The notes under the pieces: model-generated | Told to the model about the DNA's origin: nothing | The model's database searches: none | What the model saw: only the letters and a program-made list of their open reading frames with translations | NCBI RefSeq assembly: GCF_004766055.1 | Contig: NZ_SPQR01000008.1 | Location: 186,001 to 250,000, forward strand | DNA length: 64,000 nucleotides | Source of the DNA: Desulfosporosinus sp. Sb-LF | GTDB lineage: Bacteria; Bacillota; Desulfitobacteriia; Desulfitobacteriales; Desulfitobacteriaceae | Direction of reading: 5' to 3' | Position numbers and translations under genes: made by a program | Shown here: positions 36,417 to 38,046 of the stretch, one piece after another | How positions within the stretch are numbered: the first letter of the stretch is position 1 | How the letters are laid out: every line of letters begins with the position of its first letter

Positions 36417-36500
36417 TTTCTATAAAAAGTAGTTTGAATATGATAAGTATTCAGTATATTATTAAGATAGCTTATTGAAGTTTTCGAGGGGGGAAACATA

Positions 36501-37316
36501 ATGTTAAGCAAAGTAAGGACTATGTCTGAAGCTGTACGATTAGTGCAGAAAGGTCAAATGCTTGCGGTCGGTGGCAATGCTCTACATCGGACCCCTGTTG
36601 CATTCTGCCAGGAACTAGCAAGGTTGAAACGGACAGAACTCAAAGGTGTGGGCGCCGCACCAGGTTTCGCAATGGATGTCCTCTGCGCGTCGGAGAGCAT
36701 TCATGAATTGTACTTTGGTTTCTTCGGATTCGAAAATGAATATGGCCTAGCTCCGGGGATGAGAAAAGGAATTCAGGAAGGAAAGATCAAAGCTGTAGAA
36801 GGTTCATGAACAGCGATCATCAATGCTCTCCGTGCGGGAGCTTATGGAATTCCGTTCATAGGTGTAGGTGGTATGTGGGGAAGTGATTTAATCACTCAGC
36901 GCCCTGAATTCTTTCAAGTGATGAAGAGTCCATTTTCCGATGAAGAGATTGTAACCGTTAAGGCTTTGCGCCCCGATTGGGCAATTATCCATGTTCAAGA
37001 AGCAGATCAGTACGGCAATGCCCGGATCCTCGGCTCGGATTTCCAGGATATATTACTTAGCCGTGCGGCTAAGAAAACTATTATTACCACGGAAAAATTG
37101 ATTGAAACTGAAATTTTTCGACAAGAACCAAAATCAACTTCTATTCCATATTTCTTGGTCGAAGCTGTCGTCTTAGTACCGAATGGAGCCAAGCCTGGCA
37201 TCTGCTACCCCACGTACAATAGCGTTGATGCATCCGGAATGACGGAGTATAGTGAAGCTATTAAAGAAGGCAAGATAAACGATTACCTAGCACGCGTTAC
37301 GGAAGGGAGGTTGTAA
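36501..37316 (+). CDS. CoA-transferase subunit A with in-frame TGA (candidate selenoprotein)
   Basis: A GctA/COG1788-type subunit (about 271 residues) interrupted by one TGA at codon 103 (36807-36809). Both halves are in the same frame and read as one family member: VGGNALHRTPVAF near the start, KIKAVEGS just before the TGA, TAIINALRAGAYGIPF just after, then GVGGMWGSDLI and a VSIPYFLVEAVV-like C-terminal region. Nothing else is damaged. The TGA falls where the family has a small polar residue (from memory often Ser, Cys or Thr). A SECIS-like hairpin starts 15 bases downstream. Selenocysteine insertion, a nonsense mutation or a sequencing error are all possible. GAGGGGGG precedes the ATG. Subunit B follows after one base. 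Confidence 0.72.
36825..36841 (+). promoter_or_regulatory. Possible bacterial SECIS hairpin
   Basis: GCTCTC (36825-36830) pairs with GGGAGC (36836-36841), including one G-U pair, around the 5-base loop CGTGC. There are 15 bases between the TGA and the stem and 21 between the TGA and the loop. The loop has a G at its second position followed by U. These features match the published rules for bacterial SECIS elements (loop 16-37 bases downstream, G in the first two loop positions). A short stem like this can also arise by chance. Confidence 0.5.
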
Positions 37317-37317
37317 A

Positions 37318-38046
37318 ATGCATTACGGACCGGCCGAAATGATGGTGGTTGCTCTTGCACGTGAAATTAAGAACGGAGATGTTGTCTTCCACGGACTGGC
37401 TTCCCCAGTACCAATGACAGCGGTGAAGCTAGCGAAAGCCTTTGGAAGAGACTTTACATTGATTAATATCACAGGCGGGGTTGACCCTGATTGGGAAAAA
37501 CCCGCAGTTATAGGTTCTACCCTTTCGATAAATTTATTTGAGGGAGGAGTGGCAAACTTTGGTTTGGATGAAATCTTCGATCTCGCATGCACTGACCGCG
37601 TTGATATTTCCATGTTAAGCTTGGTACAGATTAGCCCGAGAGGCGAGATTAATATGTCCTTTGTAGGTGGGGAATACGATAAGCCAAAGGTGAGATTGCC
37701 TGGAGGGGCTGGGAGTGCCACTTTAACACCAGTGTCCAAGCAAACTTTGATTTGGAAGACTAAGCATGATATAAAGTCATTCGTTCCGGAAGTAACGTTT
37801 TGCACGGCAAAAGCTAATTCTTCCAAACAGTTTAAAGTTATAACGAATTTATGTACCTTCCTATTGAAAAATGGGCAGTTAGTCGTTCAAAGTATTCACC
37901 CCTACTCTAACTTGGCTGAAGTCCAAGCGAATACTGGGTGGGAAATTACTCAGACGGAAATACCCTATACTTCCGCCCCAACTGAGGTGGAACTGGCTCT
38001 GATCGAAAAAGTTGACCCCAACCGTATTCGATATATTGAGTTCTAG
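37318..38046 (+). CDS. CoA-transferase subunit B
   Basis: A 242-residue GctB/COG2057-type subunit, starting one base after the subunit A stop with GGGAGG in front. The MMVVALAREIKNGDVVFHG opening, DRVDISMLSLVQISPRGEIN and GEYDKPKVRLPGGAG are family landmarks. In glutaconate CoA-transferase the catalytic Glu lies in a Y-E-S-G segment after the second strand; the aligned segment here reads N-I-T-G-G, so that Glu seems replaced by Thr. This alignment is from memory. Without it, CoA transfer by the usual glutamyl-CoA route would be impossible, so the pair may have another CoA-ester chemistry. Confidence 0.8.
   Translation: MHYGPAEMMVVALAREIKNGDVVFHGLASPVPMTAVKLAKAFGRDFTLINITGGVDPDWEKPAVIGSTLSINLFEGGVANFGLDEIFDLACTDRVDISMLSLVQISPRGEINMSFVGGEYDKPKVRLPGGAGSATLTPVSKQTLIWKTKHDIKSFVPEVTFCTAKANSSKQFKVITNLCTFLLKNGQLVVQSIHPYSNLAEVQANTGWEITQTEIPYTSAPTEVELALIEKVDPNRIRYIEF

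Follow-up and report, generated by a model that had tools for sequence, protein, structure and literature searches.

A very likely selenoprotein subunit on the CoA-transferase fold in Desulfosporosinus and its relatives, with a tentative role in reductive carbon–sulfur cleavage

The described enzymes closest to the locus studied here share the CoA-transferase fold, and the residues that we take to carry their activity lie in one subunit or the other: Glu54 of GctB, presumably needed for CoA transfer by GctAB, Cys56 of AibB, to which we ascribe a catalytic role, and Glu105 of IpdA, which we assume to act in the active site. GctAB (PDB 1poi) is the best PDB sequence match of our subunit A (1.1e-30; 2.5e-46 by profile), AibB is the best sequence match of our subunit B (5n03, 4.8e-27), and IpdAB, which acts in the ring opening of COCHEA-CoA (PDB 6co6, 6co9, 6coj and 6con), is the best structure match of A, with AibA and GctA within 2 Z units. 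The 119 prokaryotic selenoprotein families in Table 1 of a 2026 review include no CoA-transferase entry, although CoA-disulfide reductase is itself listed as a selenoprotein (PMC13188914). Term searches inside three other papers turned up no CoA-transferase selenoprotein (PMC12013277, PMC9312934, PMC5029168), and titles and abstract starts of the open-licence literature gave no report of one or of the pathway proposed below. The first-pass annotation of this DNA knew of no selenoprotein family among CoA-transferases.

The window, i.e., the whole stretch of 64,000 nucleotides analysed, belongs to a genome of 4.27 Mb (99.99% complete) and contains the two genes studied here, A and B (Table 1). 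A single TGA, in the context VEGS-TGA-TAIINALRAG, is the only stop inside the frame of gene A, and reading through it gives a complete protein. The first-pass annotation had described gene A as intact but for this codon, gene B as otherwise undamaged, and a hairpin 15 bases past the TGA with a 6-bp stem and a 5-base loop; the frames and the hairpin, with G and T as the second and third loop bases, were all found as described. It had also called A a CoA-transferase subunit. The Pfam domain bears this out for both subunits (CoA_trans PF01144, 80.1 and 48.3 bits, cut-off 23), as does the fold for A, but subunit B lacks the catalytic Glu, so the chemistry is probably different. No NCBIfam model was passed by the gene A product.

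Table 1. Positions of the features in the window
Feature	Coordinates	Strand	Remarks
GAGG-type ribosome-binding region 5′ of gene A	36486..36496	+	sequence reading only
Gene A, very likely selenoprotein subunit, CoA-transferase fold	36501..37316	+	271 aa including Sec103; stop included
TGA codon 103, very likely read as selenocysteine	36807..36809	+	aligns with IpdA Glu105
SECIS-like hairpin, bacterial type	36825..36841	+	stem 36825-36830/36836-36841, loop 36831-36835 (CGTGC)
Gene B, partner subunit	37318..38046	+	Ile51 at the catalytic Glu (GctB)/Cys (AibB) column

The AlphaFold model of A (mean pLDDT 94.6) matches IpdA (Z 34.7; 269 residues at 1.9 Å, 25% identity), AibA (Z 34.2) and GctA (Z 33.0) over nearly its full length when compared with VIA-align. 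Helix 103-115 follows strand 97-100 and begins with Sec103, and in two alignments the column of Sec103 holds Glu in 6co6 and Ala in 6coj (“IpdAB E105A COCHEA-COA complex”). Across the 11 aligned B subunits from Sec and Cys pairs, the Glu/Cys column always has Ile, Leu or Val, and AibB structures show V (5n03), A (5n00) and S (5n02) there. Some Sec/Cys pairs are adjoined by separate CoA-transferase-like pairs (A′B′), with Glu in 4/4 B′ and Asn in 5/5 A′ subunits aligned. Judging by these sequences, the catalytic residue seems to have been replaced by one of another kind and to have switched subunits, and the A+B enzyme is probably not a CoA-transferase because the B-subunit Glu is lost; a plain CoA-transferase, lacking that residue, is thought unlikely.

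Selenocysteine machinery is absent from the window, as had been noted, and the genome search suggested at the time located all four components elsewhere in the genome. The host has selA (560.5 bits, cut-off 267.9), selB (359.5 bits with both pieces together, cut-off 242.25), a tRNA named tRNA-SeC by ARAGORN (anticodon TCA) and a selD-like gene with AIRS domains adjoining selA. By itself, the Rfam tRNA-Sec match (65.3 bits, cut-off 47) carries little weight, with control matches in 14 of 14 genomes. The gene for the formate dehydrogenase alpha subunit, FdhA, has one in-frame TGA (873.4 bits), and another lies near the N-terminus of the selD-like gene (KAG-TGA-GCKIG; L001:3251-3253, direct reading), which makes the latter a second likely selenoprotein of this genome. 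Given the machinery and these two TGA genes, selenocysteine appears to be used by the host elsewhere too.

Among the 26 genomes carrying the TGA form, 22 have selA above the cut-off (the host, 15 others and all six added later). One more shows a partial match of 232 bits (G039), another a match of 49 bits below the cut-off (G102), and the genome profile search gave no match in G029 and G088; the carriers G029, G088 and G102, which lack selA above the cut-off, are fragmentary assemblies or MAGs. The MAG ODZ_NOB7a (L072:1350-2132) has the TGA form and the hairpin, yet its genome is without selA above the cut-off, possibly owing to an incomplete bin or to some other decoding. As for genomes with Cys at this position, seven of 22 are without selA above the cut-off (G101, G103, G104, G105, G110, G111 and G112).

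Homologs were matched in 11/45 genomes at the family level (seven with one TGA), 15/82 at the class level (nine with TGA) and 16/398 in a phylum sample (13 with TGA), and a contig-level search of genomes gave 44 loci. The alignment of homologs at codon 103 that had been proposed as a check comprises 56 analysed rows, with 20 TGA, 22 Cys, 12 Glu, one Leu and one Gly, and no Trp in any row. One Glu gene is present twice in this set (L018/L041), six repeated loci are left out (L048-L050, L059, L082, L083), and so is L084, whose start is past the Sec codon. Another 16 regions, five of them dropped as repeats (L110=L058, L111=L052, L114=L056, L115=L060, L119=L061), contributed six further TGA loci, which brings the total to 26 distinct TGA loci at the same column, each without any other internal stop; in L116-L118, the second stop (TAG/TAA) is the gene end. 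Cys codons (TGT/TGC) occur in 24 distinct genes (25 rows in the tree set). The residue is Sec or Cys across the whole subfamily, and Glu, Leu, Gly or Asn in outlying families only. Identity to gene A is 83-88% for the closest homologs and 40% for the most distant TGA carriers.

In a tree of 69 rows, in which two genes are present twice (L018/L041, L040/L122) and L123, L124 (same places as L039 and L038) and L043 are left out, the Glu rows and L022 form one well-supported group (100/96), whereas the branch uniting all Sec and Cys rows is weak (88/39). Four changes are needed to account for Sec, and one Cys member sits inside the main Sec clade. This member, Peptococcaceae bacterium BICA1-7 (L051:8001-8801), has TGT in an otherwise Sec clade and selA in its genome (G082), and is likely a Sec-to-Cys reversal. 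Cys members also occur in archaeal MAGs of Geoglobus and Hyperthermus (L074, L075, L081, L085), adjoined by a PhzF-like gene in Geoglobus (by sequence look only) and by an AMP-binding gene in Hyperthermus (by cluster). Seven of 10 pairs were computable on both sides of the TGA and gave dN/dS values of 0.08-0.32 before it and 0.05-0.14 after it; in the other three, dS was saturated on one side or both.

The hairpin, GCTCTC and GGGAGC around the loop CGTGC, starts 15 bases 3′ of the TGA; a spacing rule is known for bacterial SECIS hairpins. We counted two stem registers apart, a split made after the folds were seen, and the rows of either set are not independent since Sec genes are related to each other. 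In the 21 main-group Sec genes, all 126 cells of the 6-bp stem are paired, two pairs have changes on both sides, and slid registers are paired at 29-66%; the covariation score was reached by none of 500 shuffles and the count of both-sided pairs by 18. The other five Sec genes share an 8-bp stem that is 100% paired, but their covariation score was reached by 50 of 500 shuffles and is no evidence taken alone. When a single register is imposed on the first 20 Sec genes, 87.5% of cells are paired (75% with a seventh pair), because five sequences use the 8-bp stem with a shifted partner. Rfam SECIS_1 matched nowhere, controls included, and is therefore uninformative.

Compared with synonymous codon shuffles, the folding z of the 30-base stretch is negative in 20/20 Sec genes (mean −1.48) and in all six further ones (mean −1.03), with means of 0.00 in Cys rows and 0.05 in the 12 Glu rows. 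Only five of the 20 Sec genes reach p ≤ 0.05 on their own (one of 22 Cys rows), because the hairpin also encodes the conserved LRAGAYG. Synonymous identity between five Desulfosporosinus-type and nine Syntrophomonas-type Sec genes is 2840/7326 (0.388) over the whole gene and 214/231 (0.926) at codons +5 to +10 after Sec, the top of 165 windows; at codons +7 to +12, it is 207/265 in Sec genes, and 245/935 in Cys genes against 0.348 overall. With 26 loci at the same column, full stem pairing and dN well below dS on both sides, TGA103 and its hairpin are more than chance. The selenocysteine suggested by the first-pass annotation is thus supported by the machinery, the TGA/Cys column and the paired hairpin, and we are highly confident that gene A encodes a selenoprotein in which Sec103, Cys in relatives, is the catalytic group of the active site.

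We compared the context of 39 loci (18 Sec, 21 Cys), several of them short contigs; most neighbour genes take their names from a cluster of which one or two members were scanned. A CoA-disulfide-reductase-like gene with the CGLPY motif adjoins AB on the same strand at nine of the 39 loci, four Sec (L052, L060, L061, L062) and five Cys (L063, L064, L070, L071, L073), and at none of four Glu loci. The NCBIfam CoA-disulfide reductase model is passed at L063 (611 bits) and L071 (546 bits; cut-off 458), the L052 gene falls under curated cut-offs, and the remaining genes are assigned by cluster. A rhodanese domain was identified by Pfam in the L052 gene, to which those of L060-L062 correspond in cluster and length. 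A FAD disulfide-type gene belonging to the same cluster lies at L065, but on the opposite strand, about 4 kb off and without CGLPY, and we left it uncounted.

HdrB, HdrC and FAD-type genes are found at six of the 18 Sec loci (L053-L056, L058 and L062; L061 shows no more than a short FAD-type ORF), and Hdr-type genes, whole or in part, at all six further Sec loci (L109, L112, L113, L116, L117, L118), with none at the 21 Cys loci compared. The names were assigned from L054 and L053, whose genes have CCG, Fer4 and Pyr_redox domains, and by clustering; the HdrB model scored 196.8 bits, below its cut-off. Several Sec loci combine MFS or CstA-type importers with a CoA-transferase-like pair; a GctAB-like pair and an MFS transporter lie in the same stretch at L109, L112, L113 and L053-L056, and L116 and L117 have a different, shorter pair of CoA-transferase look (by look only). 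In the window and its closest congener loci (L048-L050), two of which end downstream at contig ends, AB is flanked by neither a disulfide reductase nor a second CoA-transferase nor any known sulfur gene. That two unrelated kinds of disulfide reductase adjoin one enzyme suggests a catalytic cycle of AB that yields a disulfide. Substrates may differ between lineages, since Afipia and Brevibacterium Cys loci adjoin genes for acyl-CoA ligase, CoA-transferase III and enoyl-CoA hydratase (L076 by Pfam, others by cluster).

Neighbours at the Cys locus L071 include S-methyl-5-thioribose kinase (420.7 bits, cut-off 275), S-methyl-5-thioribose-1-phosphate isomerase (413.3 bits, cut-off 279), a class II aldolase type below the models’ cut-offs, the CoA-disulfide reductase, a sugar-type permease and PduL. 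Each of the six genomes in this Cys group (G093, G094, G099, G100, G101, G103) encodes a methylthioribose kinase and a PduP-like aldehyde dehydrogenase, both scoring above cut-offs; compared by coordinates, they lie on the contig of AB, no more than about 15 kb away from it. A class II aldolase accompanies them, as do MtnA, PduL and shell genes in some cases. Shell-type genes at L063 (BMC domain), L064 and L070 (same cluster as L063) share their surroundings with those for methylthioribose kinase, the class II aldolase, the PduP-like dehydrogenase and the CoA-disulfide reductase, and these clusters possibly encode a microcompartment for methylthioribose. Titles and abstracts of the open-licence literature yielded no paper on such a microcompartment; in a study of Acetobacterium woodii microcompartments, a methylthioribose kinase beside a cluster is called unrelated (PMC7593272). 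At the Cys locus of Siminovitchia fordii (L080:3068-9984), MsrA, MetQ/MetN/MetI-like genes below NCBIfam cut-offs and a GctAB-like pair with Glu in B are followed by AB and then OsmC, and the tandem pairs are perhaps an organosulfur acid route. Methylthioribose kinase was found in none of five Sec genomes tested, so a sulfur substrate for the Sec group is carried over from the Cys group.

We tentatively favor a reductive mechanism in which Sec or Cys would cleave an alpha-thioether acyl-CoA. UGA103 itself is very likely decoded as Sec by the host SelA, SelB, SelC and SelD with the hairpin. A carboxylic acid would first be activated to its CoA thioester. The selenolate might then attack a heteroatom on the alpha carbon, most likely sulfur, the acyl-CoA would leave as an enolate stabilized by the fold, and the resulting E-Se-S-R (or E-S-S-R) would be reduced back by a dedicated disulfide reductase. 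In the Cys group, where enzyme names come from family models, methylthioribose would give DHAP and methylthioacetaldehyde, the latter being oxidized to methylthioacetyl-CoA; AB, whose step we infer, and CoA-disulfide reductase would cut the C–S bond reductively, PduL would form acetyl-phosphate, and NADH made by the dehydrogenase would be consumed by the reductase. In the Sec group, a free acid may be imported, activated with the product acetyl-CoA and then reduced, as suggested by the importer, CoA-transferase-like pair and Hdr-like genes of several loci; the window is without such neighbours.

With similar caution, we hypothesize that the pair could be a new enzyme class on the CoA-transferase fold, an “alpha-thioether acyl-CoA reductase” converting (methylthio)acetyl-CoA to acetyl-CoA and methanethiol via a selenenylsulfide or disulfide, regenerated by CoA-disulfide reductase (NADH) or by an Hdr-like complex, depending on the lineage. 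It would close a redox-balanced methylthioribose fermentation in one Cys lineage, partly with microcompartment genes, and in Desulfosporosinus and Syntrophomonas an organosulfur acid imported by the cell would serve the Sec form as electron sink, with its CoA coming from an acetyl-CoA-recycling CoA-transferase.

Alternatively, Sec may be present and the reaction be an acyl transfer without redox. The target of Sec or Cys would then be the CoA thioester or a beta-keto carbon, and water, CoA or another acid would take the acyl group from the acyl-selenoester formed, as in a CoA-transferase, a hydrolase or an IpdAB-like retro-Claisen lyase. Cys is a common acyl nucleophile. The fold and the residue position match IpdAB, crystallised with a CoA ester (PDB titles), and the relatives AibAB and GctAB act on CoA esters. 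We nevertheless consider this route somewhat unlikely, as several loci already have, next to the Sec/Cys pair, a separate one that carries the CoA-transferase Glu in its B′ and Asn in its A′ subunit, many of the neighbours are disulfide-reductase-like, and selenoproteins are thought to be mostly redox proteins (PMC13188914).

It is also conceivable, if unlikely, that the Sec group reductively cleaves another alpha-substituent, such as a halide, or oxygen or nitrogen as in glycine reductase, and not a thioether. The missing methylthioribose kinase in the five Sec genomes would fit, and so would the importers and CoA-transferase-like pairs of several Sec loci, whose acid might be of another kind; however, the rhodanese-domain CoA-disulfide-reductase-like gene (L052; L060-L062 by cluster) and the Hdr-like genes point to sulfur, and the related Cys group stands in sulfur-sugar clusters.

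Readings without selenium fare much worse. Near-cognate UGA read-through exists in general, and UGA103 could be read as Trp or another residue, or serve a regulatory truncation at 102 residues; we regard this as highly improbable, given that relatives have Cys and never Trp at the column, that the TGA coincides with a covarying hairpin missing from Cys genes, and that the host has the Sec machinery and two further TGA genes. A nonsense mutation, pseudogene or sequencing error, which would look alike as a lone TGA in an otherwise intact frame, is a negligible prospect with the same TGA in 26 loci and the low dN/dS downstream of it. Conservation, Cys alternation and the hairpin lead us to reject pseudogene, error and Trp read-through alike, and none of the findings that the first-pass annotation had named as refuting (no machinery, homologs with Trp or a non-Cys residue, reads with a sense codon) holds, an error being very unlikely given the number of TGA loci.

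A Sec/Cys protein with a SECIS element is of a known kind; what is new here is the fold, the position of Sec and the likely chemistry. It adds a selenoprotein family to a superfamily with none listed (PMC13188914), one in which Sec has taken over from a catalytic glutamate and the active-site residue has apparently passed from one subunit to the other. Annotation can easily split such a gene into two short ORFs or label it simply a “glutaconate CoA-transferase”. If the reductive chemistry that we favor were true, it would supply the anaerobic step from methylthioribose to methanethiol and acetyl-CoA, and represent a new selenium-dependent way of breaking carbon–sulfur bonds.

Compared with known systems, IpdAB is likewise a heterodimer with the active-site residue in A at the same column, but this residue is Glu105 there and Sec or Cys in the present family, and we know of no disulfide-reductase partner of IpdAB. 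AibAB has the same fold as A and is likewise not a CoA-transferase but a decarboxylase (PDB 5mzw), with Cys in subunit B and Gly in A, the reverse of the present pair. GctAB has Glu in B where the present pair has Ile51, and GctAB-like pairs with Glu adjoin the Sec pair in several loci. A chemical precedent, in another fold and with another substrate, is offered by omega-class GST: in S-(phenacyl)glutathione reductase, Cys attacks the sulfur alpha to a carbonyl to give a mixed disulfide and the reduced ketone. The DHAP shunt (MtnK, MtnA, class II aldolase) makes 2-methylthioacetaldehyde from the methylthioadenosine-derived sugar and converts it to 2-methylthioethanol, from which some bacteria go on to methanethiol (PMC10986504). 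The six Cys loci seem to have the equipment for making this aldehyde, to which they add an aldehyde dehydrogenase, the AB pair, a CoA-disulfide reductase and, at some loci, PduL. Finally, glycine reductase GrdA/GrdB likewise achieves a Sec-dependent reductive loss of an alpha substituent to give an activated acetyl, although its families are PF04723 and PF07355, not CoA_trans, and its product is acetyl-phosphate, not acyl-CoA (PMC13188914).
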